A DNA stretch of 64,000 nucleotides, from positions 1 through 64,000 of the forward strand of contig NZ_JACYXK010000022.1 in assembly GCF_014842975.1 (NCBI RefSeq). Reading direction: 5' to 3'. Numbering within the stretch: position 1 is the first letter of the stretch; the number at the start of each line of letters is the position of its first letter. This document shows positions 40,766-57,898 of this stretch, in pieces. The notes under the pieces are model-generated. The model was not told where the DNA came from and did no database searches. It saw only the letters and a list, made by a program, of their open reading frames with translations. A program made the position numbers and the translations under genes. This DNA comes from Rhodanobacter sp. DHB23 (lineage in GTDB: Bacteria > Pseudomonadota > Gammaproteobacteria > Xanthomonadales > Rhodanobacteraceae).

Positions 40766-41203
40766 TCAGGCGGCCGGTTGCAGGTCCTTGGTGAGGAAGA
40801 TGCGGCTGGTTCCCGGCGGGTCGCAGGGAATCGCCCCGAACTCGCGCCAGCCTTGTTTCCGGTAGAACTCCGGGGCCTGGAAGCTGATCGTGTAGAGCAC
40901 GGCGCTGCGGCAGCCGCGCCGCCGGCCTTCCTGCTCGGCCAGCCGGAGCATCCGGCTGCCGAGGCCGGATCCGCGCAGCGCTTCCGGCAGGAAGAACACG
41001 TCGAGGAAGAGCAGGCCCAGGGAAGTGCGGCCGGTGATCCCGCCCAGGGTCCGGCCGGTCAGGGGATCCCTGGCCAGCACGGCGAGCGGGCGCCGGTCGG
41101 CGATGCCGCAGGCCTCGGCATTGAACTGGTCAAGGCCATTCGAGACCACGGCGAGATCCGTGGCATCCGGTGCATCGGTGACGATGATGTCGGGCAGGTT
41201 CAT
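40766..41203 (-). CDS. GNAT family N-acetyltransferase
   Basis: 145-residue acetyl-CoA-dependent acetyltransferase fold. The acetyl-CoA loop region reads LPEALRGSGLGSRMLRLAEQEGRRRG, followed by VLYTISFQAPEFYRKQGWREFG, the usual beta-4/alpha-3 and C-terminal segments. The substrate is unknown. ATG 41203 gives a normal domain length; the ribosome site is weak. It lies between rpfG and uvrD with no obvious functional tie. Confidence 0.85.
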   Translation of the reverse strand: MNLPDIIVTDAPDATDLAVVSNGLDQFNAEACGIADRRPLAVLARDPLTGRTLGGITGRTSLGLLFLDVFFLPEALRGSGLGSRMLRLAEQEGRRRGCRSAVLYTISFQAPEFYRKQGWREFGAIPCDPPGTSRIFLTKDLQPAA

Positions 41204-41256
41204 GGGGTCTGGCAGTCGACCGGTCGGGTGATGGTGTTCGGCATGGCCGAGGCGAT

Positions 41257-43668
41257 TTACAGCGGCGTGAGGTTGGCGTAGGCCGCCACCAGCCATTTGC
41301 TGCCCGCGTCTTCGAAGTTCACCTGCAGCCGCGTGTGCGCACCGCTGCCTTCGGCACTGACCACCACGCCTTCGCCGAAGCTGGGATGGCTGACGCGCTG
41401 GCCGAGTTTCACGGGCGGCTCTTCCTGCAGGGGCGGGTGGTCGACGTGGCGGCCGGCGCCGGCGTAGAGCGGGCGCGTGACCTGCACGCGGGGGCGCACC
41501 TCGTCCACCAGCGCGGCCGGAATCTCCGCGAGGAAGCGCGAGGGGCGCGCCAGCATCTCGGTGCCGTGCATGCGGCGCGATTCGGCGTAGCTGATGACCA
41601 GGCGCTCGCGGGCGCGGGTGATGCCCACGTAGGCGAGGCGGCGCTCCTCCTCCAGCCGGCCCTCGTCCTCGGTGGAACGCTGGCTGGGGAACAGGCCTTC
41701 CTCCAGCCCCACCAGGAACACCAGCGGGAACTCCAGGCCCTTGGCGGAGTGCAGCGTCATCAGCTGCACGCAGTCGTCCCAGGCCTCGCCCTGGCCTTCG
41801 CCTGCCTCCAGCGCGGCGTGCGAGAGGAAGGCGGACAACTCGTCCAGGCCGGCGTCGATGTCTTCCTGAGTGCGCTCGAAGCGGCTGGCCACGTTGACCA
41901 GTTCGTCGAGGTTCTCGATGCGCGCCTCGCCGTTGCCGCGGCTGTCCTTTTCGTAGTGGTCGCGCAGGCCGGTGTGGACGAGCACGTGGTCGATCCGTTC
42001 GGCGAGGGGCAGCGCATCGCTGCTCCCCACTCCCTCCGGGAGAGGGAGTGGGGGTGAGGGTTCGGGCGAAGTGGAGGCGTTCGGCAAGTCCGAACCCTCA
42101 CCCCAACCCCTCTCCCGGGGGGAGGGGGGCTTGAAGTCACGGCTCATCCCGTCGATCAGCGCGAGAAAGTTCTTCACGGCGTTCTTCGCGCGCCCCGCCA
42201 GTTCGCTGCCCGCGAGCTCGGCGAGGGCAGCCTCCCACAGCGAGTTGCCGTCGTGGCGGGCGCGGCGGCGCAGCACGTCCAGCGTGCGGTCGCCGATGCC
42301 GCGCGGGGGCGTGTTCACGGCGCGCTCGAACGAGGCGTCGTCGTGGCGGCTGGCGGTGAGGCGCAGGTAGGCCAGCGCGTCCTTGATCTCGGCGCGCTCG
42401 AAGAAGCGCTGGCCGCCGTAGACGCGGTAGGGGATGCTGCGCTGGGTGAGCTGTTCCTCGAAGTTGCGCGACTGCGCGTTGGAGCGGTAGAGGATGGCGC
42501 AGTCGCGCGCGTTGCCGTGTTCGGCGACGTATTCGCGGATGCGCTCGATCACGAAGCGCGCCTCGTCCTGCTCGTTGTACGCGGCGTACAGCGCGATGCG
42601 CTCGCCTTCGCCGCCCGCCGTCCACAGCTCCTTGCCGAGGCGGCCGCCGTTGCGCGCGATCACGCTGTTGGCGGCCTTGAGGATGGTGGCGGTGGAGCGG
42701 TAGTTCTGTTCCAGCTTGATCGTGCGCGCACCGGGGAAGTCGCGCAGGAACTGCTGCATGTTCTCCACCCTGGCGCCGCGCCAGCCGTAGATGCTCTGGT
42801 CGTCGTCGCCCACGGCGAAAACGGCGGCGGGATTCGGGATGACCAGACATTCGTCTGTTGAGAGCCGGGATTCGGGATTGGGCAGGGCGCCGGGTAACTC
42901 GGCGTGGCCAGCTTTTCCGAATCCCGAATCCCGAATCCCGAATCCCGTGCTCGCGCCGGCAAGCACGCGGATCCACGCGTACTGCAGTGCATTGGTGTCC
43001 TGGAACTCGTCGACCAGCAGGTGGCGCCAACGGTTCTGGTAATGCTCCAGCACGGCGGGGTTCTTCAGCCACAGCTCGTGCGCGCGCAGCAGCAGTTCGG
43101 CGAAGTCCACCAGGCCGGCGCGGCGGCAGGCATCCTCGTAGGCCTGGTAGATGCGCACCAGCGTCGCGGTGACCGGATGGTCGCGATGCTCGATGGCGTC
43201 GGGGCGCTTGCCCTCGTCCTTCCAGCCGTTGATCGTCCAGGTGGCCTGGCGTGGCGGGAAGCGCGCCTCGTCCAGGCCCAGGCCGGCGACCACGCGCTTC
43301 ACCAGCCGTTGCTGGTCGTCGGCGTCGAGGATCTGGAAACCTTCCGGCAGCCCGGCCTCGCGCCAATGGCGGCGCAGCAGGCGGTGGGCGATGCCGTGGA
43401 AGGTGCCCACGGTGAGCCCTTGCGTGCCGCCGGGGATCAGCGATTCCAGGCGCGAGCGCATCTCGCCCGCGGCCTTGTTGGTGAAGGTGACGGCGAGGAT
43501 CGCCCACGGCGGCACGCGCTCCACCTGGGTGAGCCAGCCGATGCGGCGGGTGAGCACGCTGGTCTTGCCGGAGCCGGCGCCAGCGAGGACGAGGTAGGGG
43601 CCGGGCGGTGCGCAAACGGCTTCGCGTTGCGCGTCGTTGAGCGAATCGATCAGGTGCGAGACATCCAT
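41257..43668 (-). CDS. uvrD: DNA helicase II with two in-frame repeat insertions
   Basis: 803-residue superfamily 1A 3'-5' helicase of nucleotide-excision and mismatch repair; E. coli UvrD has 720. Motif I AGAGSGKT is at 29-36, motif II VDEFQDTN near 218, motif III VGDDDQSIYGWRGA, motif IV QNYRST, and motifs V and VI are near LHSAKGLEFP and VGITRARERL; the C-terminal KLGQRVSHPSFGEG Tudor-like segment is kept. The extra length comes from two dispersed repeats read in frame: residues about 240-280, between motifs II and III, and about 513-549, in the 2B domain. Both fall where E. coli has short loops. No stop or frameshift results. Confidence 0.95.
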   Translation of the reverse strand: MDVSHLIDSLNDAQREAVCAPPGPYLVLAGAGSGKTSVLTRRIGWLTQVERVPPWAILAVTFTNKAAGEMRSRLESLIPGGTQGLTVGTFHGIAHRLLRRHWREAGLPEGFQILDADDQQRLVKRVVAGLGLDEARFPPRQATWTINGWKDEGKRPDAIEHRDHPVTATLVRIYQAYEDACRRAGLVDFAELLLRAHELWLKNPAVLEHYQNRWRHLLVDEFQDTNALQYAWIRVLAGASTGFGIRDSGFGKAGHAELPGALPNPESRLSTDECLVIPNPAAVFAVGDDDQSIYGWRGARVENMQQFLRDFPGARTIKLEQNYRSTATILKAANSVIARNGGRLGKELWTAGGEGERIALYAAYNEQDEARFVIERIREYVAEHGNARDCAILYRSNAQSRNFEEQLTQRSIPYRVYGGQRFFERAEIKDALAYLRLTASRHDDASFERAVNTPPRGIGDRTLDVLRRRARHDGNSLWEAALAELAGSELAGRAKNAVKNFLALIDGMSRDFKPPSPRERGWGEGSDLPNASTSPEPSPPLPLPEGVGSSDALPLAERIDHVLVHTGLRDHYEKDSRGNGEARIENLDELVNVASRFERTQEDIDAGLDELSAFLSHAALEAGEGQGEAWDDCVQLMTLHSAKGLEFPLVFLVGLEEGLFPSQRSTEDEGRLEEERRLAYVGITRARERLVISYAESRRMHGTEMLARPSRFLAEIPAALVDEVRPRVQVTRPLYAGAGRHVDHPPLQEEPPVKLGQRVSHPSFGEGVVVSAEGSGAHTRLQVNFEDAGSKWLVAAYANLTPL
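42022..42129. repeat. Family 2 palindromic repeat inside uvrD
   Basis: Arms CTCCCTCCGGGAGAGGGAG and CCTCTCCCGGGGGGAGG, with inner GGTGAGGGTTCGGGCG and CCGAACCCTCACCCC. It is read in frame in uvrD as a Pro/Ser/Gly-rich stretch of ~36 residues. Confidence 0.88.
42829..42949. repeat. Family 3 ATTCGGG repeat inside uvrD
   Basis: About 120 bases bounded by inverted blocks: GGGATTCGGGAT at the left and four ATCCCGA units at the right, with further GGGATTCGGGATT units inside. It is read in frame in uvrD. The inner part next to the right-hand units resembles that of the unit between accB and accC. Confidence 0.88.
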
Positions 43669-43694
43669 CGCGCCGATTGTAACGGTTGCGGCGC

Positions 43695-43913
43695 TCAGCC
43701 CTTGCGGAGGATGCCGCCGAGTACCAGCAATGCGCCTACCGCAATGCCGGTGATGCCCAGCCATTGCGGAAAGGCCTTGTCGTGCGTGGCGGTGAGCTTG
43801 GCCGAGCCGAGCTGGAACAGGGTGTCGGTGGTCTGGTAGCTGCCGTGGCCGAACACCACCCACACGCCCGCCACGAGCAAGACGAGGCCGACGACGATTA
43901 GTGCGAAGCGCAT
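43695..43913 (-). CDS. Small membrane protein of unknown function
   Basis: 72 residues with two membrane helices (about 3-22 and 47-68) linked by a short polar loop, starting at ATG 43913 (MRFALIVVGL). The family is not recognised. It sits 26 bases upstream of uvrD on the same strand. Confidence 0.6.
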   Translation of the reverse strand: MRFALIVVGLVLLVAGVWVVFGHGSYQTTDTLFQLGSAKLTATHDKAFPQWLGITGIAVGALLVLGGILRKG

Positions 43914-44074
43914 GGGTTCTTCCGGTGCGGTGGGTGGTGGTGAGTATGCCGGTGATGGGCATGTGGATGAAGTGCAGGGCGACAGTCCTTCCATTGTTCG
44001 CGCTGAGCGCGAGCGGAGTCTTTGAGACTTCCGTCCGGAGCGGCTCTGAAGTCAATCCGGAGCATCGCTTCTCT

Positions 44075-44116
44075 GAAAAGTGCGGCCATGGATGGCCGCC
44101 CGTTTGATCTTCGTGT
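44075..44116 (-). repeat. Family 4 repeat, single inverted copy
   Basis: On the minus strand CGAAGATCAAACGGGCGGCC followed by ATCCATGGCCGCACTTTTC. This is the core of the 66-base unit repeated three times at 54995-55190. Confidence 0.8.
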
Positions 44117-44132
44117 TCATGGAGGAACACAT

Positions 44133-44173
44133 AAAAAAAATGGCCCCGAAGGCCAGGGGGTGCCTTCGGGGCC
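44133..44173 (-). terminator. Intrinsic terminator of polA
   Basis: On the minus strand GGCCCCGAAGGC, an 8-base loop, GCCTTCGGGGCC, then A and eight T. It is about 180 bases past the polA stop. Confidence 0.88.
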
Positions 44174-44355
44174 GGTGGAGGCGGAAGCCCAGGGGAGAGG
44201 CTCCGCGTCCGGGTGGCTGTCCAGGGAGGTGACCAGCCATGGGTGCCGTTGCGTACACCCGATGATTGAGAACGCGCCGCGGGGGAAAAGTTCTACGGCG
44301 CACGCGAAGAAAAGTCAGGATCCGTTCATTTCACGGGAAAACAACAAATGGACGT

Positions 44356-47121
44356 CTAATGCGCCTCGTCCCAGTTTGCGCCTGTCCCCACTTCGACCAG
44401 CAGCGGCACGGCCAGCTGCGCGGCGCCCTGCATGCGTTCGCGCACCGCTTCGCGTACCTCGTCGACCGCGTCGGCACGCACCTCGAATACCAGTTCGTCG
44501 TGCACCTGCATCAGCATGTGGGCGTCGTCGCGCTCCTTGAGCCATGTGGCCACGGCGATCATCGCCCGCTTGATGATGTCGGCCGCGCTGCCCTGCATCG
44601 GCGCGTTCACCGCGGCGCGTTCGGCGCCGGCACGGTGGGCCTGGTTGCGGGACTGCAGGTTCTCCAGGTACAGGCGGCGGCCGAAGATGGTCTCCACGTA
44701 GCCGTCGCGGTGCGCCTGCGCGCGGGTGGCTTCCATGAAGGCATGCACGCCGGGATAGCGCGCGAAGTAGCGCGCCATGTAGTCGCTGGCCTCGCCGCGG
44801 TCGATGCCGAGCTGGCGGGCGAGGCCGAACGCGCTCATGCCGTACATCAGGCCGAAATTGATCGCCTTGGCGGCGCGGCGCTGTTCCTTGCTCACTTCGT
44901 CCAGGGCGACGCCGAACACCTCGGCGGCGGTGGCGCGATGCACGTCGCCGCCTTCGTGGAAGGCCTTGAGCAGGCCTTCGTCGCCGGACAGGTGGGCCAT
45001 GATGCGCAGTTCGATCTGCGAGTAGTCGGCCGCCATCACCTTCCAGCCCGGCGGCGCGATGAAGGCTTGGCGGATGCGCCGGCCTTCCTCGGTGCGCACC
45101 GGGATGTTCTGCAGATTCGGGTCGGTGGAGGAAATGCGTCCGGTGGCTACCGCGCCCTGATGGTAGCTGGTGTGCACGCGGCCGGTGCGCGGGTTCACCG
45201 TGCCGGCCAGCTTGTCGGTATACGTGGAGCGCAGCTTGGCCAGTCCGCGGTAGTCGAGGATCAGCCTGGGCAAGGCGTGTGCATCGGCGATCGCCTCGAG
45301 CGCCTCCTCATTGGTCGAGGGCTGACCGGTGGGCGTCTTGAGTTTCGCGGGCAGGCCCAGCTCGTCGAACAGGATCGCCTGCAGTTGCTTGGGCGAGTCG
45401 AGGTTGAATTCGCGTCCGGCTTCGCGGTACGCCAGTTGCTGCAGTTCCAGCATGCGCTTGCCCAGCTGCTGGCTTTGCTTGCGCAGTTCGTCCACGTCGA
45501 TCAGCACGCCGCGCTGCTCCATGCCTGCCAGCACGGGTATCAGCGGGATCTCGATGTCCTCGTACACCGAACGCAGGCTGGGTACTCTCTCCAGCTGCGG
45601 CCACAGCGCGTGGTGCAGGCGCAGGGTGACGTCGGCGTCCTCGGCGGCGTAGCGGCAGGCGGTGTCCAGGTCCACCTGCGAGAACGAGATCTGCTTCGCG
45701 CCCTTGCCGGCCACTTCCTCGTACTTCACGGTGTCGTAGCCGAGGTAGCGTTTCGCCAGCGAATCCATGTCGTGGCGCGTGGCGGTCGCGTTCCACACGT
45801 AGGATTCCAGCATGGTGTCGTGGCGCACGCCCTGCACGGCGATGCCGTAGTGCGACAGGATGTTGATGTCGTACTTCGCGTGCTGGCCAAGCTTGGGGCG
45901 GCTCGCGTCCTCGAACACGGGCTTGAGCGCGGACAGCACCGCATCGCGGGGAAGCTGCGCGGGCGCGCCGGGGTAATCGTGCGCCAGCGGGATGTAGCAG
46001 GCCTTGCCCGGTTCCACCGCGAGGCTGAGGCCGACGATGTCGGCCAGCATCGGATCCAGTGCCGTGGTCTCGGTGTCGAAGGCGATCAGCGGGGCGTCGC
46101 GCAGCTTTTCCAGCCATGCGTCGAGCTGCGGTTGCGTGGTGACGAGTTCGTATTCGCCTGACGCCGCGAGGTCGAAGCCCCTCTCCCCCCGGGAGAGGGG
46201 GTGGGGTGAGGGTTCGGTGTCGCCTCGCGCTTCGGTCGCACCCTCACCCCCGGCCCCTCTCCCGGGGGGAGGGGGGAGCGGATTTTCGAGATCCTTCAGC
46301 GCTGCCTTGAATTCGTAGCGCGCGTACAGCTCACGCAGTGCATCGGTATCGGCATCGCGCATCGCGAGGTCAGCAGGCTTCTGATCCAGCGCCACATCGG
46401 TCTTGATCGTCACCAGCGCACGCGACAGCGGCAGCTGCGGCAGGGCTTCGCGCAGGCTCTCGCCGATCTTGCCGCCGACCTTGTCCGCATTCGTGATCAC
46501 GCCGTCCAGCGAGCCATATTCGGCGATCCATTTCGCGGCGGTCTTGGGGCCGCACTTGGGCACGCCGGGCACGTTGTCCACGCTGTCGCCGACCAGGGTG
46601 AGGTAGTCGACGATGCGTTCCGGCGGCACGCCGAATTTTTCCTCGACGCCGGCGCGGTCCATCGTGGTGTTGGTCATGGTGTTGACCAGGGTGACGCCGG
46701 GGCCGACCAGTTGCGCCATGTCCTTGTCGCCGGTGGAGATCTCCACCTCGATGCCGGCCTGCTGCGCCTGCACGGCGAGCGTGCCGATCACGTCGTCGGC
46801 TTCCACGCCGCCCACGCGCAGGATCGGGAAGCCCAGCGCGCCCACGATCGCCAGCATCGGCTCGACCTGCGCGCGCAGGTCGGCCGGCATCGGCGGACGG
46901 TTCGCCTTGTAGTGCTCGTACATCTCGTCGCGGAAGGTGGGGCCGGAGGCGTCGCTGACGAAGGCGACGTAGTCGGGCCTGGCCTTCAGCGTGGAGCGCA
47001 GCATGTTGACCACGCCGAACAGCGCGCCGGTGGGTTCGCCCTGCGCGTTGGTCAGCGGCGGCAGCGCGTGGAAGGCGCGGTAGAGATACGAGGATCCGTC
47101 GATCAGGATGAGCTTGGGCAT
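44356..47121 (-). CDS. polA: DNA polymerase I with an in-frame repeat insertion
   Basis: 921-residue repair and Okazaki-processing polymerase. The 5' nuclease domain spans 1 to ~275 (LILIDGSSYLYRAFHA; GGVEADDVIGTLA). The 3'-5' exonuclease begins FDTETTALDP near 345. Polymerase motifs A (VMAADYSQIELRIMAHLSGD), B (RRAAKAINFGLMYG) and C (QVHDELVFEV) are intact. Residues ~279-314 come from a family 2 repeat (46180-46283) read in frame, in the linker between the nuclease and exonuclease domains. That insertion is the only oddity. Confidence 0.96.
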   Translation of the reverse strand: MPKLILIDGSSYLYRAFHALPPLTNAQGEPTGALFGVVNMLRSTLKARPDYVAFVSDASGPTFRDEMYEHYKANRPPMPADLRAQVEPMLAIVGALGFPILRVGGVEADDVIGTLAVQAQQAGIEVEISTGDKDMAQLVGPGVTLVNTMTNTTMDRAGVEEKFGVPPERIVDYLTLVGDSVDNVPGVPKCGPKTAAKWIAEYGSLDGVITNADKVGGKIGESLREALPQLPLSRALVTIKTDVALDQKPADLAMRDADTDALRELYARYEFKAALKDLENPLPPPPGRGAGGEGATEARGDTEPSPHPLSRGERGFDLAASGEYELVTTQPQLDAWLEKLRDAPLIAFDTETTALDPMLADIVGLSLAVEPGKACYIPLAHDYPGAPAQLPRDAVLSALKPVFEDASRPKLGQHAKYDINILSHYGIAVQGVRHDTMLESYVWNATATRHDMDSLAKRYLGYDTVKYEEVAGKGAKQISFSQVDLDTACRYAAEDADVTLRLHHALWPQLERVPSLRSVYEDIEIPLIPVLAGMEQRGVLIDVDELRKQSQQLGKRMLELQQLAYREAGREFNLDSPKQLQAILFDELGLPAKLKTPTGQPSTNEEALEAIADAHALPRLILDYRGLAKLRSTYTDKLAGTVNPRTGRVHTSYHQGAVATGRISSTDPNLQNIPVRTEEGRRIRQAFIAPPGWKVMAADYSQIELRIMAHLSGDEGLLKAFHEGGDVHRATAAEVFGVALDEVSKEQRRAAKAINFGLMYGMSAFGLARQLGIDRGEASDYMARYFARYPGVHAFMEATRAQAHRDGYVETIFGRRLYLENLQSRNQAHRAGAERAAVNAPMQGSAADIIKRAMIAVATWLKERDDAHMLMQVHDELVFEVRADAVDEVREAVRERMQGAAQLAVPLLVEVGTGANWDEAH
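46180..46283. repeat. Family 2 palindromic repeat inside polA
   Basis: Arms CCCTCTCCCCCCGGGAGAGG and CCCCTCTCCCGGGGGGAGG, with inner GGTGAGGGTTCGG and CGCACCCTCACCCC. It is read in frame in polA as a Pro/Gly/Glu-rich stretch. It resembles the copy in uvrD. Confidence 0.88.
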
Positions 47122-47214
47122 GCGCGCATTCTTGCATGTGGCGCGTGCGGGCGCGGTTCACGGGAAGGCAGTGGTCGCGCTGTTATGCTTCGTGCCTCTT
47201 TCGAGGTTGCTGCC

Positions 47215-47766
47215 ATGAAAACCGCCACCTGCCTGCTTGCTATCTCTGCCTTCGTCGCGCTGCCGGTCTGGGCGCAATCCACCAGCAGCCAGTCGCCGCA
47301 GTTCGCCCCGGTACCGCCGCCGCCGGGCATGAACGATCCGGGCGTGAAGGCGGTGGCGCCGCCTGCCCAGCCCGCGCCGTCGAGTACCAGCGGCAGCACG
47401 CCGGCCGAAGTCACCGCCACCCCGGTTCCCGGCAAGCCGATTCCCCTGCCTGCGATGCCGGGCGACAAGGGCGCGCCGAAGATGGCCAGGGGCGATTCGC
47501 CGGCGGACGATGTCAGCGTGCGCACCGAGGGCGATGCGGTGTACCAGGAATACCGCCGGGGTGGCCGCGTCTACATGGTGGTGGTCACGCAGAAGAGCGG
47601 TCTGTCCTATACCTACATGGTGGACAGCGACGGCACGATGCGCGCCACCGATGGCGCGCCGCCGGTGCGGCCGGTGATGTACAAGATCCTGGAGTGGGGC
47701 AAGAGCAAGCCGGCCGAGTCCGGGGACGAGTCCCAGGACAGCGGCTCGCAGGACGGCGCGCATTGA
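47215..47766 (+). CDS. DUF2782-like exported protein
   Basis: 183 residues. A signal peptide (1-21, ending PVWAQS) is followed by a long Pro/Ala-rich section (to ~100), then a compact domain with VYQEYRRGGRVYMVVVTQKSG and a YMVDSDGTM hairpin, typical of DUF2782 proteins that sit divergently beside polA in many gammaproteobacteria. The function is unknown. The C-terminus is acidic and low-complexity. Its start is 94 bases from that of polA. Confidence 0.82.
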   Translation: MKTATCLLAISAFVALPVWAQSTSSQSPQFAPVPPPPGMNDPGVKAVAPPAQPAPSSTSGSTPAEVTATPVPGKPIPLPAMPGDKGAPKMARGDSPADDVSVRTEGDAVYQEYRRGGRVYMVVVTQKSGLSYTYMVDSDGTMRATDGAPPVRPVMYKILEWGKSKPAESGDESQDSGSQDGAH

Positions 47767-47844
47767 TGCGTCGTGCGGGTGAGCGGAATGGCTCTCCCGC
47801 GTCCTCCTTTCCTGCTGGGAAGAGGGGCTGGCGATAGGGGGTTT

Positions 47845-47865
47845 GAAGGCGGCTTCGCCGCCTTC
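47845..47865. terminator. Hairpin after the DUF2782 gene
   Basis: GAAGGCGGC, loop TTC, GCCGCCTTC: a perfect 9-bp stem between convergent genes, without a T tract. Confidence 0.5.
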
Positions 47866-47886
47866 AGTGATGGAGTGCCAAATTTG

Positions 47887-47911
47887 TTTCAGGCACTTTC
47901 AGTGCCTGAAA
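47887..47911 (-). terminator. Hairpin spanning the purH stop
   Basis: TTTCAGGCAC, loop, GTGCCTGAAA: a 10-bp stem. The purH TGA (47899-47901) lies in the loop, so the last codons of purH form one arm. It is followed on the minus strand by CAAATTTGG, not a clean T run. Confidence 0.6.
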
Positions 47912-49509
47912 TGCCGCATCCCGGTGAACACCATCGCCATGCCGTGTTCGTCGGCGGCGGCGATCACCTCGGCGTCGCGCATCGAGCCGCCGGGCTGGAT
48001 CACCGCGGCGATGCCCGCCGCCGCCGCGGCATCGATGCCGTCGCGGAACGGGAAGAAGGCGTCGCTCGCCATCACCGAGCCGCGCACCTCCAGTTTTTCG
48101 TCGGCGGCCTTGATGCCGGCGATCTTCGCGCTGTACACGCGGCTCATCTGCCCGGCGCCGATGCCGATGGTCTGGCGGTCCTTCGCATAGACGATGGCAT
48201 TGGACTTCACGAACTTCGCCACCTTCCACGCGAAGATCAGGTCGTCGATCTGCGCGGGCGTGGGCGCCACCCTGGTCACGACCTTCAGGTCCTCGGCCTT
48301 CACCATGCCGGTGTCGGCGCCCTGGATCAGCAGGCCGGAGCCCACGCGCTTGACGTTGTTGCCGGGGTGCGCGGCGACCAGGTCGGTGCCCGGCGGCACC
48401 GGGATTTCCAGCACGCGCACATTGCCTTTCCTGGCGAACGCCTTCAGCGCATCGTCGCTGTACGCGGGCGCCAGCACCACCTCGACGAACTGCCGCGACA
48501 CGATGGCCTGCGCGGTGGCGCCGTCGAGCTCGCGGTTGAACGCGATGATGCCGCCGAAGGCCGAGGTGGGGTCGGTCTGGTAGGCGAGGTCGTAGGCCTT
48601 GCCGATGCCGTCCAGGCTCACCGCCACGCCGCAGGGGTTGGCGTGCTTGACGATCACGCAGGCGGGCTTGGTGAAGCTGCGCACGCACTCCCACGCGGCG
48701 TCGGCATCGGCGATGTTGTTGAACGAGAGCTCCTTGCCCTGCAATTGCACGAAGGTGGCCAGCGTGCCCGGCGCGGGGTACAGGTCGCGATAGAAAGCGG
48801 CGGCCTGGTGCGGGTTCTCGCCGTAGCGCAGGTCCATCACCTTGACGAAGCGACCGTTGGCCTGTGCGGGGAAGGCCTCGTGGCCGGCGATGGCCTCCTG
48901 CGCTTCGTCCAGCTTGAGGCCCGAGAGGTAGTCGCTGATCGCGCCGTCGTAGTTGGCCACGTTGTTGAACGCGGCGACCGACAGCTGGAAGCGCGTGGCG
49001 CGCGAAAGCCCGCCGTGCTGCTCGATCTCGGCGAGCGCGGCCGCGTACTGGTCCGGGGAGGTGAGCACGCCCACGTCGTTCCAGTTCTTTGCCGCCGAGC
49101 GCAGCATCGCCGGGCCACCGATGTCGATGTTCTCGATGGCGTCCTCCAGCGTGCAGCCCGGCCTGGCGACGGTGGCCTCGAACGGGTAGAGGTTGAGCAC
49201 CAGCAGGTCGATGGGCTGGATGCCCAGCTCCGCCATCACCGCGTCGTCGGTGCCACGCCGGCCGAGCAGGCCGCCGTGCACCTTGGGGTGCAGGGTCTTC
49301 ACGCGGCCGTCCATGATCTCGGGGAAGCCGGTGACGTCGCTGACGTCCTTCACCGCGATGCCGGCGTCGCGCAGCGCCTTTGCACTGCCGCCGGTGGAGA
49401 GCAGCTCCACGCCCCGGGCGGCGAGGCGTTGGCCCAGCTCGATCAGGCCGGTCTTGTCGGAAACGCTGAGCAGGGCGCGGCGGACGGGGACGACGGCGGG
49501 GGCGGGCAT
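47899..49509 (-). CDS. purH: Bifunctional AICAR formyltransferase/IMP cyclohydrolase
   Basis: 536-residue enzyme of the last two steps of IMP synthesis. The N-terminal MGS-like cyclohydrolase domain has [20 protein letters not shown] and [13 protein letters not shown]. The C-terminal transformylase has the catalytic Lys-His pair in VKHANPCG and ends TGMRHFRH, the usual terminus. It is followed upstream by fis on the same strand, as in other xanthomonads. Confidence 0.97.
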
Positions 49510-49589
49510 GGCGGCTTCCTGACGGGAAAGCCGCGAATTATAGCCCAGTCGGCGGCGCGGCCGTCTTTTGGACGGCCAAACGCGGCGGA

Positions 49590-49877
49590 TTACAGCAGGC
49601 CGTGCGCGGCCAGCTTCTTGCGCAGGGTGGCGCGGTTGATGCCCAGCGCCACGGCGGCGCGGCTCTGGTTGCCGTCATGGAACGCCAGGACCTCGCGCAG
49701 CAGCGGGCCTTCCACCTCGTGGATCACCAGCGCGTGCAGGCCTTCGCCGCAGTCCGCGTCGCCGAGGTCGGCGAGGTAGCGGCGCACGGTGCGGCTGACG
49801 CATTCGCCAAGCGCACTCTGCGACGCGACCGGGCGGTTGGCCTCGGCGGTTGGCAATCTCACGGCGTTCACTGACAT
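49590..49877 (-). CDS. fis: Fis-family DNA-binding protein
   Basis: 95-residue nucleoid-associated factor, near the 98 residues of E. coli Fis. The C-terminal helix-turn-helix reads [20 protein letters not shown], and [16 protein letters not shown] gives the preceding dimer helices. The frame is open upstream, so ATG 49877 ([10 protein letters not shown]) is chosen from family length. It lies between DUF3426 and purH genes, a conserved order. Confidence 0.92.
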
Positions 49878-50058
49878 TTCCCTCGGCGCGTCTCGTGCGG
49901 CTGCGTGGGCCGCTGTTCTGATGGTCCTGCGCGACCGCATCGGCGATCGTCCCGTGCATGCTGCTGGCGGTGCGCGGGACGGGTGAGTCTACCCGTGTGG
50001 GTCGCGGATTTTAAGTGCCGCGTCTGTCCGGCGCGTATCGCAGGCAGCCTGCGGCGCG

Positions 50059-50907
50059 CTATTCGAAATCGAACTGGTAGGCAACCGCCGCCTCGCCGGG
50101 ATCCTGCACTTCCAGCAGCAATGCCGTGGTGGCGCCGGGCGCGAGCCCGTGGCTCAGCACGACGGGATCGTCGAGATAGTCGGTGGGCAGCAGGCGGCGC
50201 ATCGACAGCCGATGGCCCTGTGCATCCGACAGGGTGACCACCACCACCGGCCAGGGCTGGGCGAACGCCGCGTCGTTGCGCAGACTGAGGCTGATCATCA
50301 GCGCATTCGCGGCGTTCGGATGCGTTTCGACGTTGCTGGCGAGCAGGCGCAACTGCTTCGGCGCGGCGACCAGCGGCAGGCGGCAGCCCAGCGCGTCGCA
50401 GGCGCCGCGCAGCAAGCCGCCGGCGAGCGGGGTACGGACCAGGTCGTCGCGATCGATCCACGCCACTTCGCCGGCGAGTGCGATGGCCAGCGCGACGCAG
50501 ACCAGTACCCAGGGCCAACGCCGTTGCCGGTCGGCATCGCGTGCCGCACGGGGCCTGCGTCCGGTTCGCGGCGGCTTGTGCTTGCGCGATTTCATCGCGA
50601 AGCGTGGCGCGAATACCAGTTGCGAGAAGTCTTCCGCCGCCGCGGCAGGCGCCGCTTCCGCCACCACGACAGGTTCGGGTGCGGGGCGTTGCGGGCGATA
50701 CACCACCAGCTCGATGCGCGGCGGCGCCAGCGCCTGCTCGTTCAGCGGCATTTCCCGGAACGGCTCCGGCGGCAACTGTTCGCTGAGCGTGGCGAGGCTG
50801 TCGAAGCCGGCGCCGCAATGCCCGCACAACACGTAGCCGTGCGCCTGCACCAGCGCTTGCGCGCCGAGCGAGAATACGGACAGGCACTCAGGACATTGCG
50901 CGTACAT
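50059..50907 (-). CDS. Zinc-ribbon DUF3426 membrane protein
   Basis: 282 residues. An N-terminal MJ0042-type zinc ribbon has Cys5, Cys8, Cys28 and Cys31 (CPEC, CGHC). A proline-rich, basic cytoplasmic linker comes next, then one membrane helix (about 130-150, PWVLVCVALAIALAGEV) and a C-terminal DUF3426 beta domain. The function is unknown; the family is linked to prmA and fis in many proteobacteria. Confidence 0.88.
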   Translation of the reverse strand: MYAQCPECLSVFSLGAQALVQAHGYVLCGHCGAGFDSLATLSEQLPPEPFREMPLNEQALAPPRIELVVYRPQRPAPEPVVVAEAAPAAAAEDFSQLVFAPRFAMKSRKHKPPRTGRRPRAARDADRQRRWPWVLVCVALAIALAGEVAWIDRDDLVRTPLAGGLLRGACDALGCRLPLVAAPKQLRLLASNVETHPNAANALMISLSLRNDAAFAQPWPVVVVTLSDAQGHRLSMRRLLPTDYLDDPVVLSHGLAPGATTALLLEVQDPGEAAVAYQFDFE

Positions 50908-51007
50908 GCGGTGCGTCGCGTTGAACGAGCCGCAAGCTTAGCAGGGGATGTGCGGGAGCCAGTTCACTCTCCCTGCGGGCCGCATGGATATGGCGGTGAA
51001 CCGGCGT

Positions 51008-51907
51008 TTAGCCGTGGCGATGCCCGCTGATGCGCACCCAGCCGTCGTGGATGTCCACGCGCAATGCGTCGAACCATTCGGCGTAGCGCGCCAGCAGTTC
51101 GTCCTGCTGGCCGTCGAGGATGCCGGAGATCGCGAACGGTGCGCCGGGCTTCGCCGCCGCCGCGAACACCGGCGCGAGTTCGCCCAGCGGGCCGGCGAGG
51201 ATGTTCGCCACGAACACGTCGGCGGCGGCCCTGGGTTCGTCACCCGGCAGGTGGACGTCGAGGCGTTCCGCCACGCCGTTGCGCCCGGCGTTGTCGCGCG
51301 AGGCGAGCAGCGCCTGCGGATCGTTGTCCACGCCGACGGCATGCGCGGCGCCGAGCTTGAGTGCGGCGATGGCGAGGATGCCCGAACCGCAGCCGTAGTC
51401 GATCACCGACTTGCCGGCGAGCTCGAGCCCGTCCAGCCATTCCAGGCACAGCGCGGTGGTGGGGTGCGTGCCACTGCCGAAGGCGAGGCCGGGATCGAGG
51501 CGCACTACCACGCATGTGTCGTCCATGGGTGGCTCGATGTTCCACGGGTAGATCCACAGCCGCCGTCCGAACGACATCGGCTGGTACTGATCCATCCACA
51601 CGCGCTCCCAGTCCTGGTCTTCCACTTCGCGGAAGCCCAGCTGATCGGGCTCCAGCCACGGCAGCAGTTCGCCCAGCGCGGCGGCGAGGCCGCGTCGATC
51701 CGCGTGTTCGTCGAACAGCGCGTTCAAGGTGATCGTGGGCCACAGCGGCAGCTCGCCCACGCCCGGCTCGAAGATCGCCTGCTCGTCCGGCGTCTCCGCA
51801 TCGGCGTCGCGCAGCGTGATCGACAGCGCGCCGAGATCCTCCAATGCCTCCTCGGCGCGAGGCTGCTGTTCGAGGCGGGTGGTGAGGGAGAGTTCGAGGA
51901 AGGGCAT
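51008..51907 (-). CDS. prmA: Ribosomal protein L11 methyltransferase
   Basis: 299-residue SAM-dependent enzyme that trimethylates ribosomal protein L11. The N-terminal substrate domain starts MPFLELSLTT. The methyltransferase domain has FGSGTHPTTALCLEWLDG, VIDYGCGSGILAIAALKLGA and FVANILAGPL, the family's N-P/I-L motif. The frame stays open upstream through a repeat, so ATG 51907 is chosen by homology. Confidence 0.96.
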   Translation of the reverse strand: MPFLELSLTTRLEQQPRAEEALEDLGALSITLRDADAETPDEQAIFEPGVGELPLWPTITLNALFDEHADRRGLAAALGELLPWLEPDQLGFREVEDQDWERVWMDQYQPMSFGRRLWIYPWNIEPPMDDTCVVVRLDPGLAFGSGTHPTTALCLEWLDGLELAGKSVIDYGCGSGILAIAALKLGAAHAVGVDNDPQALLASRDNAGRNGVAERLDVHLPGDEPRAAADVFVANILAGPLGELAPVFAAAAKPGAPFAISGILDGQQDELLARYAEWFDALRVDIHDGWVRISGHRHG

Positions 51908-51921
51908 GGCGTCGGCTTCAC

Positions 51922-52052
51922 TCCCTCTCCCCTGCGGGGAGAGGGTTGGGGTGAGGGGTGTTCTGGCGATGGAGTTTGAATGAGCGGGCTTTGTTCTGGG
52001 CCTGTCGCAAGCCCCGTCCCCTCTCCTCAATCCTCCCCCCAGAGGGGAGAGG
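51922..52052. repeat. Family 2-like CCCTCTCCCC palindromic repeat, copy 6
   Basis: Starts CTCCCTCTCCCCTGCGGGG and ends CCCCCCAGAGGGGAGAGGAGG, with a diverged middle. It fills most of the prmA-accC gap. Confidence 0.75.
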
Positions 52053-52076
52053 AGGCGAACGCGAACAGCGCGGTAC

Positions 52077-53447
<1,371 letters not shown>

Positions 53448-53476
53448 GGGATTCGGGATTCGGGATTCGGGATTCG
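53448..53476. repeat. Family 3 ATTCGGG repeat, left end of the accB-accC unit
   Basis: Four tandem GGGATTC units that touch the accC start codon. They are the inverted counterpart of the block at 53863-53894. Confidence 0.88.
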
Positions 53477-53503
53477 AAAAAGCGGGCACTGGCGTGGCAT
53501 CGG

Positions 53504-53881
53504 TCATTCCTCGCGGGATTGAACGGAGCGGATGAGTGCGTTCAACTTGGCGAAGACGCGATCCAGCAGATCCGCTGTTTCAGGCGGAACCTTGGCGTAG
53601 TCGAGGCGCTCGGCGATATGCAATTGCGTGTCCAGTTCGGAAAGCGAGCCACGGGCAATGGAAAGGAAGCGCAGGTACTCCGGCGTCGATTTTCGCGCGA
53701 CACCCTCGGCGATGTTCGAGGGTACGCTGATTGCGGCGCGACGCAGTTGGGCGGTGAGGGCGAAGCGTTCATCGTCCGGGAAGCCATGACTCAGCCGGTA
53801 AATCGCTTCGACGAGATCCATCGCATCGCGCCACACCTCAAGCTGCTGGTGTGGCCGCTTTGCCGAATCCCGAATCCCCAT
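53504..53881 (-). CDS. Four-helix-bundle protein (S23/IVP family) inside a repeat unit
   Basis: 125 residues of the 23S rRNA intervening-sequence / four-helix-bundle family (TIGR02436-type, related in fold to DGR Avd proteins). The family core is clear: [56 protein letters not shown]. Members in rRNA inserts and as lone genes have no settled function. ATG 53881 lies inside the flanking ATTCGGG repeat, so the first ~6 residues (MGIRDS) come from it. A TTG at 53905 would extend it into accB. It interrupts the accB-accC operon on the same strand and so may be co-transcribed. Confidence 0.85.
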
Positions 53882-53894
53882 TCCCGAATCCCGG
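53863..53894. repeat. Family 3 ATTCGGG repeat, right end of the accB-accC unit
   Basis: CCGAATCCCGAATCCCC then ATTCCCGAATCCCGG: inverted copies of the left-end units. It ends 3 bases from the accB stop and carries the start codon of the four-helix-bundle gene. Confidence 0.88.
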
Positions 53895-53897
53895 CTC

Positions 53898-54359
53898 TCA
53901 GGCAATCACGAACATCGGCTGGTCGAATTCGACCGACTGGCTGTTGTCGACCAGGATCGCCTGGATCGTGCCGGACACGTCGGCCTCGATCTGGTTGAAC
54001 ATCTTCATCGCCTCGATGATGCCCAGCGTGTCGCCGGCCTTCACCTGCTGGCCCACCTTGGCCAGCGCAGGGGCGCCAGGCGTGGCGGAGGCATAGAAAG
54101 TGCCGACCATCGGCGCCTTCACCACGTGGCCGGCGGGCAGGCCGCTGACGGCAGGGGCGGCTTCGACAGCGGCGACCGGTGCGGGTGCTGCCGCCACCGG
54201 CGCGGGGACCACGGCGACCGGTGCGGGCGCGGCGACGGCCACGCCGCCCTTGGGTACGCGTGACAGGCGCACCACTTCCTCGCCTTCCTTGATTTCCAGT
54301 TCGGCGAGGTTGGATTCCTCGAGCAGGTCGATCAGCTTCTTGATCTTGCGCAGATCCAT
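53898..54359 (-). CDS. accB: Biotin carboxyl carrier protein of acetyl-CoA carboxylase
   Basis: 153 residues. An N-terminal helix ([16 protein letters not shown]) is followed by an Ala/Pro/Val-rich flexible linker (about 40-72) and a biotinyl domain. Biotin attaches at Lys119 in [13 protein letters not shown], where E. coli has EAMKMMNQIEA. The domain starts [12 protein letters not shown], which includes the thumb. It is followed by the inserted four-helix-bundle gene, then accC. Confidence 0.97.
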
Positions 54360-54415
54360 GGGATGGCCTTCATGTCATGGGCCGCCTTGGGCGGCCGGAA
54401 AGGAAAAGGGGTGGT

Positions 54416-54859
54416 TCAGCGTGGCGCCAGCCGGGCGACGGCGGCGTCCAATGCCAGGCGGTAGCTGTCGGCGCCGAAACCGCAGATCACGCCGACCGCG
54501 ATGTCGGCCAGATACGAGTGGTGCCGGAACGGTTCGCGGGCGTGCACGTTGGACAGGTGCACCTCGATCAACGGAATCGCCACCGCCGAGAACGCGTCGC
54601 GCAGCGCGATGCTGGTGTGGGTGAGTGCGCCGGCGTTGCACAGGATCATCGCCACCTGTTCGTCGCGTGCCTGGTGCACGCGGCCGATCAGCTCGTGCTC
54701 GGCATTGGACTGGAACCATGCCAGTTCATGCCCGGCGGCTTGCGCTTGCGCGGCCAGCCGGCCGTTGATGTCGGCCAGTGTGTCGCTGCCGTAGATGGTC
54801 GGCTCGCGTGCGCCCAGCAGGTTGAGATTGGGTCCGTGCAGAACCAGGATCTTGGCCAC
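54416..54859 (-). CDS. aroQ: Type II 3-dehydroquinate dehydratase
   Basis: 147-residue flavodoxin-like enzyme that forms 3-dehydroshikimate in the shikimate pathway. [20 protein letters not shown] carries the catalytic tyrosine (Tyr23); [32 protein letters not shown] with the catalytic histidine, and [11 protein letters not shown] are typical. The start is GTG 54859, with AAGG 7 nt before. It lies 56 bases upstream of accB, as in many gammaproteobacteria. Confidence 0.96.
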
Positions 54860-55184
54860 GCCATGCCTTCGACGACGTCCGGACGACCCGGAACGGGGCG
54901 CAGTGTGCGCGCTGTTGCCGATGTTGTCCAGTTCGGCGCAGATCGGCGATGTTCGATGGAGAAGCCGTGCGTCGGCGTATGTGTGGGTGTGACTCTTGCG
55001 ATCATCCCAGATCGCGGAGATCAAGCGGGTGACTGTTCATGACCGCACTTTTCATTAGTCCTTGCGATCATCCGTGATCGCGAAGATCACACGGGCGGCC
55101 ATCCGTGGCCGCACTTTTCACTTGGCTCTTGCGATCATCCCTGATCGCGAAGATCACATGGGCGGCCATCCATGGCCGCACTTT
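54860..55184. other. Intergenic region filled by tandem family 4 repeats
   Basis: 325 bases between the tlpA-like gene and aroQ on the minus strand. More than half is the three-unit tandem repeat. The remainder should contain the aroQ-accBC promoter. No gene is seen. Confidence 0.6.
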
Positions 55185-55190
55185 TTACAT
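54995..55190 (+). repeat. Family 4 tandem repeat, three units of 66-67 bases
   Basis: Units start at 54995, 55061 and 55128 with CTTGCGATCATCC. Each holds two small palindromes, GATCATCCxxGATC and GCGGCCATCCxTGGCCGC, and ends CACTTTTCA. Unit 1 is the most diverged. The third unit overlaps the TAA stop of the tlpA-like gene. The second palindrome followed by ACTTTTT looks like a weak terminator on the plus strand. Confidence 0.9.
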
Positions 55191-55712
55191 AAGCCATCGA
55201 TCGAGCGTGGTGGCGTCCAGCGGGCCGCGGTGCGTGGCGATCACGCGCCCATCGGTGTCGATCAGCACGCTGTACGGGAGTATCTCGTCGCCATCACCCC
55301 ACAACAGCGACGTGCTTGGAGACGCCATGCGGCCGAGCAGGATGGGGTAATGCACGGGATGATCGGCCAGAAAGGTACGAACACGTGCGGGATCATCCAT
55401 CGCGATTCCGAGCACGATACTGCCGTTTTCGCCGAACTTGGCTTGGGCGCGATCCAGCGCGGGCAGTTCGTCCAGACAGGGTCCGCACCAGCTTGCCCAG
55501 AAATTCAGCAGCACGCGACGGCCGCGGTAATCCGCCAGGCCATGCGTGCGGCCTTGCAGGTCCGGCAATTCAAGGAGGGGTGCTGGCTCACCAACCTGTG
55601 CCACCGTCACCCCGGCCGGCACATGCGCCAGCCGGCTCTCGTGTTGCAACCAGCCGCCCAGTGTCGCGGCCAGCACCGCCGCGACCAGGATGACGAGGTT
55701 GTCGCGGCTCAA
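55185..55712 (-). CDS. TlpA/ResA-like thiol-disulfide protein
   Basis: 175-residue periplasmic thioredoxin-fold protein with an N-terminal membrane anchor (about 5-21). The active site is Cys76-Gly-Pro-Cys79 in FWASWCGPC; the central insert and YSVLIDTDGRV with the cis-Pro loop are those of the AhpC/TSA-TlpA group. The start is TTG 55712, which overlaps the dsbD stop as TTGA, so it is probably coupled to dsbD, which would keep it reduced. It probably takes part in cytochrome maturation or periplasmic disulfide reduction. Confidence 0.88.
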   Translation of the reverse strand: MSRDNLVILVAAVLAATLGGWLQHESRLAHVPAGVTVAQVGEPAPLLELPDLQGRTHGLADYRGRRVLLNFWASWCGPCLDELPALDRAQAKFGENGSIVLGIAMDDPARVRTFLADHPVHYPILLGRMASPSTSLLWGDGDEILPYSVLIDTDGRVIATHRGPLDATTLDRWLM

Positions 55713-57898
55713 TGCGCCGCCTCATCCAGCGCCCGCTCCACCAGTGCCGTGGTCAGTACCGTGGGCAGTTGGCGGCCCTCGCCACCGCCCTTCGGGAACA
55801 CCACGTACAGCGGCACGCCCGGCGAGTGGTAGTGCTGCAGGAAGGCGGTGATCGCCGGATCCTCGTTGGTCCAGTCGCCCTTCATGTAGACCGCGCCGTC
55901 GCGCTTGAGCGCGTCATGGAAGGCGGCGCCATCCAGCACGGCGTGCTCGTTGGCCTTGCAGGTGATGCACCAGTCGGCGGTCATGTCCACGAACACGGGC
56001 GTGTTGGCGGCGCGCAGTTCGGCGAGCTTCGCCGGGCTGTACGGCACGGTGCCTTCTTGCGCCGTCGCGGTGTTCACCGTGGCCGGCAACTGTGCCAGCA
56101 GGTACAGCGGCGCCAGCGTGGCCAGTGCCAGCAGCGCGGTCAGTACGTGGTGCAGCGGGCTGCGGCCACGGCTGCGCTCGAACCACCACAGCGCCAGCGC
56201 CAGCAGCACCAGTGCTACCAGCAGCAGGCCCACCGCATCGGCGCCGCGCTGGTTGGCCAGCACCCAGGCCAGCCAGGCCGCCGTGAGATACATCGGGAAC
56301 GCCAGCACCTGCTTCAGCGTTTCCATCCAGCGCCCGGGTTTCGGCAGCCAGCGCGCCAGCGCGGGGACATAGGCGATGGCGAGGAAGGGCAAGGCCAGGC
56401 CCACGCCCAGCATGATGAAGACCAGCAACGCGTGCACGGCCGGCGCGGCGAAGGCATAGGCCAGCGCGCCGCCCATGAAGGGGGCGGTGCAGGGGCTGGC
56501 CACCACGACGGCGAGCACGCCGGTGAAGAAGTCGCCGGCCACGCCGCCGCGATTGGCCAGCGAGCTGCCGGCGTTGCCCAGCGAGGCGCCGAACTGCACC
56601 ACGCCAGACATCGACAGGCCCAGCGCGAAGATCACGCAGGCCAGCACCGCCACCAGCAGCGGCTGCTGCAACTGCGTGCCCCAGCCCAGCGCATGGCCGG
56701 CCGAACGCAACGCGAGGATACCGATACCCAGCGCCAGGAAGCTCGCCAGCACGCCGGCGGTATAGGCCAGCGCATGGAGGCGCCGGCGCGCGGGGTTCTC
56801 GCCGCTTTCCAGCAGGCTAACCGCCTTCAGCGAGAGCACCGGCAGCACGCAGGGCATCAGGTTGAGGATCAGCCCGCCGCCCAGCGCCAGCAGCAACGCG
56901 GCGAGCAGGCTGGTCTGCAGCGGGCCGGTGGGCGTGGCCGCGCCCGTGCCCGATGCGACAACGCCTTGGGCCGCCGCGCCGCCGGCGAGATCGATGATGG
57001 CGTCGCGCGTCATCGGCGGGTAGCACACGCCGCCGTCCTTGCAGCCGAGGAAGCTTGCTTCCAGCGTCACTTGCCGGCGGCCCGCGGTGTTGCCTTCGAT
57101 CGCGACGGGCAGTTCGAGATCGCCGAAGTACACCGTCACCGTGCCGAACTGCGCATCCGGATGCTGCACGCCACCCGCCGGCCACGCGGGTGCGCCGAGC
57201 TTCAGGCCATCGGCATCCTTCAGCTTGAGCGTGATGTGGTTGCGATAGACGTAGTAGTCCTTCGGCATCGTCCAGCGCAGCAGCAGGTGCTGTGCGTCCT
57301 GTGCGAGCGCGGAGAACTGGAAGGCCTGCTCCTGCGGCAACGGCTCGGACGATGCGCTGTTTCCGCTACCGCCCAACTGCTGCAACGCATTGCCCAGGTT
57401 GTTGCCTGCAGCGGGCGTTGCGGCGGCGGCAGGCAGCGGCAGGTCGAGCTGTTCGGTATGCGGCGGATAGCAGATCTTCGGCTCCACCTCGTGGCAGCCC
57501 TGGTACTGCACGCTGAGCACGGGATGCGTGGTGCCGGGCGCCACGGTGTAGGGAATGCTGGCGTCGACGGAGTGGTGGTAGGTCTCGACCGGGCCGAGGT
57601 AGGGATCGACGTGTTTCTCGCCGGCCGGCAGTTGCGCCTCGCCCAGCGTGACGCCGGGGCCGGCGGTGAACTTCATGCGGCCACGGTAGAGGTAGTAGTC
57701 CTGCGCGATCACCCAGTGCAGCTTGAGCGTGCCTGGCGTGCCGGCATCGGCACTGAGCTTGTAGGCCTCGGTCACCGGCAGGATGTTGTCGTCCTGCGTC
57801 TGGGCGAACGCGGCGGGTGCCAGCAGGCAGCACAGGCCAAGCAGCAGGAAGGCCAGTCCGGGCAGGCGGGCGGCCACACGGCCGGTGATGAGGCGCAT
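55709..57898 (-). CDS. dsbD: Thiol:disulfide interchange protein DsbD
   Basis: 729-residue inner-membrane electron carrier that moves reducing power from thioredoxin to the periplasm. A signal peptide is followed by two N-terminal alpha-type beta domains (the single domain appears duplicated, about 30-165 and 180-310, each with a CxxxxxxxCYPP motif). The eight-helix beta domain has LNLMPCVLPVLSLK and SPCTAPFMGGAL cysteines. The C-terminal thioredoxin domain has DMTADWCITCK. It is longer than E. coli DsbD (565) because of the extra N-terminal domain. Confidence 0.92.
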   Translation of the reverse strand: MRLITGRVAARLPGLAFLLLGLCCLLAPAAFAQTQDDNILPVTEAYKLSADAGTPGTLKLHWVIAQDYYLYRGRMKFTAGPGVTLGEAQLPAGEKHVDPYLGPVETYHHSVDASIPYTVAPGTTHPVLSVQYQGCHEVEPKICYPPHTEQLDLPLPAAAATPAAGNNLGNALQQLGGSGNSASSEPLPQEQAFQFSALAQDAQHLLLRWTMPKDYYVYRNHITLKLKDADGLKLGAPAWPAGGVQHPDAQFGTVTVYFGDLELPVAIEGNTAGRRQVTLEASFLGCKDGGVCYPPMTRDAIIDLAGGAAAQGVVASGTGAATPTGPLQTSLLAALLLALGGGLILNLMPCVLPVLSLKAVSLLESGENPARRRLHALAYTAGVLASFLALGIGILALRSAGHALGWGTQLQQPLLVAVLACVIFALGLSMSGVVQFGASLGNAGSSLANRGGVAGDFFTGVLAVVVASPCTAPFMGGALAYAFAAPAVHALLVFIMLGVGLALPFLAIAYVPALARWLPKPGRWMETLKQVLAFPMYLTAAWLAWVLANQRGADAVGLLLVALVLLALALWWFERSRGRSPLHHVLTALLALATLAPLYLLAQLPATVNTATAQEGTVPYSPAKLAELRAANTPVFVDMTADWCITCKANEHAVLDGAAFHDALKRDGAVYMKGDWTNEDPAITAFLQHYHSPGVPLYVVFPKGGGEGRQLPTVLTTALVERALDEAAH

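Follow-up and report, generated by a model that had tools for sequence, protein, structure and literature searches.

In the 64,000-nt stretch of Rhodanobacter sp. DHB23 DNA analysed here, referred to as the window, the genes accB (BCCP, TIGR00531; 53898-54359) and accC (biotin carboxylase, TIGR00514; 52077-53447, start ATG 53447-53445) lie on the minus strand and are separated by a gap that contains a single S23 gene (PF05635) between inverted ATTCGGG arrays, and nothing else. Read on the minus strand, the order is a 5′ array of four GGGATTC-type units (53864-53892; GGGATTC GGGAATG GGGATTC GGGATTC G), the subterminal motif GCAAAGCG (53856-53863), the S23, or 23S_rRNA_IVP, four-helix-bundle gene of 125 aa (53504-53881), then CGCTTTTT, with the 3′ subterminal motif CCCGCTTTTT at 53477-53486 as the inner stem common to the dispersed hairpins discussed below, and finally four GAATCCC units as the 3′ array (53448-53476), seen on the forward strand as four GGGATTC units beginning at 53448. 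These coordinates bear out the sequence-only reading, according to which one repeat-bounded S23 unit fills the whole gap. The left array adjoins the ATG of accC, as had been noticed, and the right array provides the S23 start codon, the ATG at 53881-53879 falling within the variant heptamer GGGAATG. The right array is also close to the accB stop codon (53898-53900, minus strand), its outer end lying five bases away and not three as claimed.

The S23 reading frame reaches further upstream, to a TTG at 53905, and its stop codon overlaps an ATG (ATGA; 53505-53507, minus strand) from which a frame runs without a stop across the 3′ array and on into AccC, giving an ORF of 476 aa; by its arrangement, this overlap could possibly permit translational coupling. 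The arms of the element, of 42 nt, are 88% complementary, and its RNA folds into one stem enclosing the entire gene (−197.5 kcal/mol, z −6.1, 0/100 shuffles). Single ATTCGGG heptamers are no rarity in the window (13 observed vs. 7 expected). No Rfam match was found at positions 41000-56000, and a known RNA was thus discarded as a candidate. Two CTCTCCCC-GCGGGGAGAGGG palindromes, at 51920-51960 and 52010-52055, flank the accC-prmA junction, so the ends of accC carry repeat elements of two different families.

The S23 protein matches PF05635 with an E value of 5.9e-34 (116.9 bits, cut-off 33.8) and TIGR02436 with 114.1 bits (cut-off 24), and it is the product of the only PF05635 gene in its genome. 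It is closely similar to XCC0516 of Xanthomonas campestris (PDB 2gsc; E 6.5e-45), on which its AlphaFold model, a helical bundle with a pLDDT of 92.1, superposes with TM scores of 0.83/0.94. PDB 2gsc contains five chains, and S23 is stated to be a homopentamer (PMC4990558, citing Lin 2006). After S23 itself, the nearest fold is that of an accessory subunit of a DGR RNP (PDB 8ub7), with TM scores of 0.61/0.72 but an E value of 0.06. As judged from dN/dS, S23 is under selection: the ratio is 0.16 between the accB-accC gene and its counterpart in a congener, G001, and 0.09-0.16 for most of the pairs examined; a value of 0.87 comes from a single pair that is very closely related and has undergone few changes. 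No catalytic motif is known in S23, nor was any known function for it found in the cited literature. It is absent from 50,697 phage records, on the basis of which a phage origin was rejected.

The accBC operon had been described as usually uninterrupted, and indeed in 10 of 14 congeners (L181-L190) the accB-accC gap is at most 27 nt long and has neither a heptamer nor S23. The S23 element is present at this site in G001 (L192) and G005 (L067). The same gap in G014 (L191) is occupied by a gene-less hairpin made of ACTCGGG, the dominant heptamer of that genome (261 dimers), and the S23 gene of G014 is located between carA and carB, flanked by ACTCGGG arrays. The relatives do not all carry S23, let alone the same gene without repeats, which had been named as a possible refutation. 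S23 is the only gene inside the accB-accC element, which holds no transposase. No target-site duplication was seen at the empty sites, where the flanks are diverged, nor was any excision.

The phylogenetic tree of S23 sorts by insertion site, 12 sites (accBC, carAB, nrdAB, metF, dnaKJ, and others) requiring 11 changes, which is the minimum, against a mean of 34 after shuffling; S23 genes therefore remain in place and are passed down. The accBC clade covers Rhodanobacteraceae and Lysobacteraceae, including X. vasicola, whose S23 gene is flanked by GGGAATC-type units, and in many species S23 has been lost or was never gained. The suspicion that a mobile element is present in the operon needs qualifying: it is the small hairpins that are dispersed, and the S23 gene descends vertically, keeping one fixed site in different genera and in two families. 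It is also worth mentioning that the nrdA-nrdB clade (L041, L044, L050, L079, L083, and L094) reads against its neighbours, and the accBC and carAB clades do not.

The proposed genome search for the repeat unit without the gene showed that DHB23, besides its one PF05635 gene, has 42 tandem ATTCGGG dimers spread over some 20 sites; the reversed pattern, used as a control, does not occur. Most of these sites are hairpins of 70-125 nt built like the S23 element, namely (GGGATTC)n GG-AAAAGC - loop - GCTTTTSC (GAATCCC)n; solo arrays without a partner arm also exist. The subterminal RAAAGC/GCTTTY stem is common to the hairpins of four heptamer families and to the S23 element, which argues for common descent of these elements over independent slippage. 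Between close relatives it is the hairpins that vary: a lepA-lepB site and a nuo-type site are filled in DHB23 and empty in G001 and G002. A further gene-less ATTCGGG hairpin (42826-42949) lies in frame inside a UvrD-type helicase gene (41257-44130, minus strand) and adds about 40 aa between the conserved helicase motifs DEFQDT and VFAVGDDDQSIYG; this site is empty in G001, G002, G008, and G013, and in G014 contains a different version, composed of ACTCGGG and encoding 56 aa.

There is another in-frame insert in this helicase gene, KPPSPRERGWGEG...PLPLPEGVGSS (42019-42132); the palindrome that encodes it is of another type, CCCTCTCCC/GGGAGAG. Two gene-less ACTCGGG hairpins, L241 in G081 and L245 in G037, share a loop of about 110 nt, which is oriented oppositely in the two, and some hairpins thus hold conserved cargo other than S23. 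At another locus of G081 (L243, G081:C19:34160-34470), heptamer arrays flank an apparent E3-binding domain of a 2-oxoacid dehydrogenase E2 gene, and they read as sitting in interdomain linkers.

The association of arrays with S23 is not confined to this locus. Among 72 S23 genes of the order, a period of 7 (or 14) is the best on both sides in 49 and on at least one side in 60; among 84 S23 genes from about 20 phyla, including one archaeal MAG, which are the closest relatives of the window protein and not a random S23 sample, the respective numbers are 32 and 53, about one third of the S23 genes from other phyla having no period-7 array at the threshold applied. Control segment pairs have such arrays on both sides in 3 of 832 cases and on at least one side in 61 of 832; the pooled S23 genes have them on both sides in 81 of 156. 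Likewise, a period-7 array is located downstream of 93 of 154 S23 genes vs. 21 of 232 other long ORFs at the same loci. In 67 of 77 loci both arms contain one and the same heptamer in inverted orientation, compared with 6.4% for arms paired across loci. The S23 genes found on plasmids are mostly cyanobacterial, and all 16 cyanobacterial plasmid loci fetched have arrays, one octameric and the others heptameric.

Thus, the link of S23 with inverted repeats elsewhere, put forward as a check, is found, each lineage having its own heptamer (ACTCGGG, AAGTGTG, TTGCTAT, CAGACCA, GTCACGC, AAAAGCT, and others). The choice of ATTCGGG as the S23-flanking repeat holds here and is too narrow in general, because the sequence changes with the lineage and only the length of 7 (sometimes 8) is shared. 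The unit length remains constant at 7 across S23 lineages, some loci having a period of 8 or 9 instead. A general model of stop-free heptamers was dropped, as stops are present in AGCGGTG and AAGTGTG.

The cognacy of S23 and the repeats was assessed by counting tandem dimers of five heptamers, chosen from S23 flanks, in 149 genomes and comparing the counts with the heptamer flanking each S23. All 19 cognate genome-heptamer pairs have at least 14 dimers, the median in other S23 genomes being 0, with shared descent contributing to the match since the genomes of the cognate pairs are related (same genus or family). For ATTCGGG and ACTCGGG this applies to 13 of 13 cognate genomes. GCGAATG dimers number 85 and 14 in the two genomes with a GCGAATG-bearing S23 and at most 2 elsewhere, AAGTGTG dimers 153 and 66 in the cognate genomes and at most 1 elsewhere, and AGCGGTG dimers 80 and 102 vs. 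at most 20. For these three heptamers the cognate genomes exceed all 147 others, the sole runner-up with more than 7 dimers being G134, with 20, mostly in one array. Dimer counts do not equal site counts, and some stem from one long array, as in G026 (84 dimers, 83 on one strand). At least one of the five heptamers reaches 8 or more dimers in 32 of 60 genomes with S23 and in 10 of 89 without it (p 3e-8). No degenerate S23 or S23 remnant was found in these ten of the 42 heptamer-rich genomes, whose hairpin populations may outlive S23 or stem from another source.

Heptamer arrays, S23 in rRNA IVS, and the REPIN-RAYT system are each already known. GGGAATC/GGGGATT repeats of Xanthomonas and Nostoc (PMC4692102) and TAACTGA repeats of Beggiatoaceae (PMC4679880) resemble the hairpins described here in forming dispersed intergenic arrays, often inverted pairs in Xanthomonas, but S23 is mentioned in neither paper and the origin of the repeats is left open in both; no general association with mobile elements was reported (PMC4692102). 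In Coxiella, the S23 ORF of the 23S rRNA IVS likewise lies within a hairpin with inverted ends, and the tandem GACAGAT heptamers ahead of it were treated as a local feature (PMC4990558). In contrast, the present element is located between accB and accC, i.e., in a protein operon and not inside a 23S rRNA gene, and is accompanied by dispersed gene-less copies. In REPIN-RAYT (PMC3116915), too, a single-copy, vertically inherited gene that does not itself move is flanked by the repeat of a dispersed hairpin population, and the repeat types are genome-specific. Dispersed inverted-pair hairpins matching the gene-flank repeat are present here as well; an adjacent Y1 transposase is not. The gene product is an S23 four-helix bundle instead of the Y1 transposase (PF01797), and the repeat is a tandem 7-mer array of fixed length and free sequence. 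No general link between S23 and heptamer arrays was found in the open-access literature, to which our search applies.

S23 and the hairpins appear to form a single type of genetic element that had gone unrecognised. In our opinion the accB-accC insert probably serves as master copy for a selfish element in two parts, similar to REPIN-RAYT, with the S23 pentamer replacing the transposase. The first part would be a hairpin that has inverted arrays of a 7-nt unit as its arms and one S23 gene in its loop; the second, gene-less hairpins with the same heptamer and the subterminal stem RAAAGC...GCTTTY, inserted between genes and sometimes in frame within them. The association across phyla, the inverted arms, the genome-specific cognacy, the empty sites, and the vertical inheritance at fixed sites are observed; that S23 acts in trans, binds the hairpin, and drives its copying by host enzymes is what we infer. 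The pentamer would most likely recognise the hairpin of its own heptamer in the form of folded RNA or single-stranded DNA, gauging the length of the unit more than its sequence, and would aid host enzymes in copying or maintaining hairpins at new sites, so filling the role that RAYT has for REPINs without being a transposase. The closest fold outside S23, the DGR accessory subunit, belongs to a nucleic-acid machine and agrees with such a role, albeit at the E value of 0.06 given above. That the unit is fixed in length and free in sequence points to a measurement of spacing by the protein or by the copying reaction. Copying templated by the opposite arm within a hairpin is unsupported, since variant units are mirrored no better than in shifted registers.

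Alternatively, S23 could be a passenger that survives only inside hairpins, perhaps because they are tolerated operon gaps, with the hairpins spreading by slippage or another mobiliser. The ten heptamer-rich genomes without S23, the solo arrays, and the description of heptamer repeats with no linked gene (PMC4692102, PMC4679880) agree with this explanation, which we nevertheless regard as unlikely, as each S23 lineage has its own heptamer, matched by the genome, and a passenger has no need for one unit length across phyla and plasmids. Slightly less likely still is a domesticated regulator, in which case S23 would bind heptamer hairpins in mRNA and control the stability, RNase III processing, or translation of a regulon including its own operon. 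The proximity of the arrays to start and stop codons, the preserved operon frame with its ATGA overlap, the translational regulation proposed by MacGregor for TAACTGA heptamers (PMC4679880), and the location of rRNA IVS S23 genes in RNase III hairpins (PMC4990558) fit such a role; the patchy presence within one genus, with ten congeners empty, the unrelated target genes, the translation of the uvrD-internal hairpin into protein, and the orientation of the nrdAB S23 genes do not.

We give very little credence to MITE- or REPIN-like hairpins being moved by a known enzyme with S23 as an accessory, although DHB23 has two Y1_Tnp genes and S23 resembles the Avd-type accessory protein of DGRs, which belongs to a nucleic-acid RNP. 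A DGR requires a reverse transcriptase together with template and variable repeats, and RVT_1 genes are absent from DHB23, G001, and G005; as heptamer abundance also shows no association with reverse transcriptase presence in the 149 genomes (p 0.23), this enzyme was rejected as a partner, and so was a RAYT/Y1 transposase as the mover, Y1_Tnp being absent from the heptamer-rich S23 genomes G005 and G056. Chance proximity of slippage-prone or G-quadruplex tracts to S23 is the least credible explanation, for even if in some genomes heptamers outnumber all other long simple repeats (PMC4692102), it is contradicted by the cognacy counts and the control pairs (3 of 832 vs. 81 of 156), and many heptamers, e.g., TTGCTAT, AAAAGCT, and AAGTGTG, are not G-rich.

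Returning to the two-part selfish element, through the cognate, heritable match S23 gains a candidate substrate and the heptamer repeats a candidate maker. With such elements in essential operons and coding regions, operon structure and proteins are shaped too. A repeat system with a conserved unit length and free sequence is, to our knowledge, unlike known sequence-specific mobile elements. More tentatively, at slightly less than an even chance, S23 may represent a bacteria-wide class of elements in which a non-enzymatic four-helix-bundle pentamer propagates hairpins whose tandem units are free in sequence and fixed in length (7, rarely 8-9); the heptamer arrays seen in Xanthomonas, heterocystous cyanobacteria, and other bacteria, as well as the rRNA IVS, would then all derive from such elements. 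The S23 loci with a period of 8 (L049, L077, L086, L096, L120, L137, and L162) may belong to separate S23 lineages with a different unit length. On cyanobacterial plasmids, S23 and its arrays are also located within CRISPR operons, between cas6 and cas4 (L223, L235) or between cas10 and cmr3 (L233).
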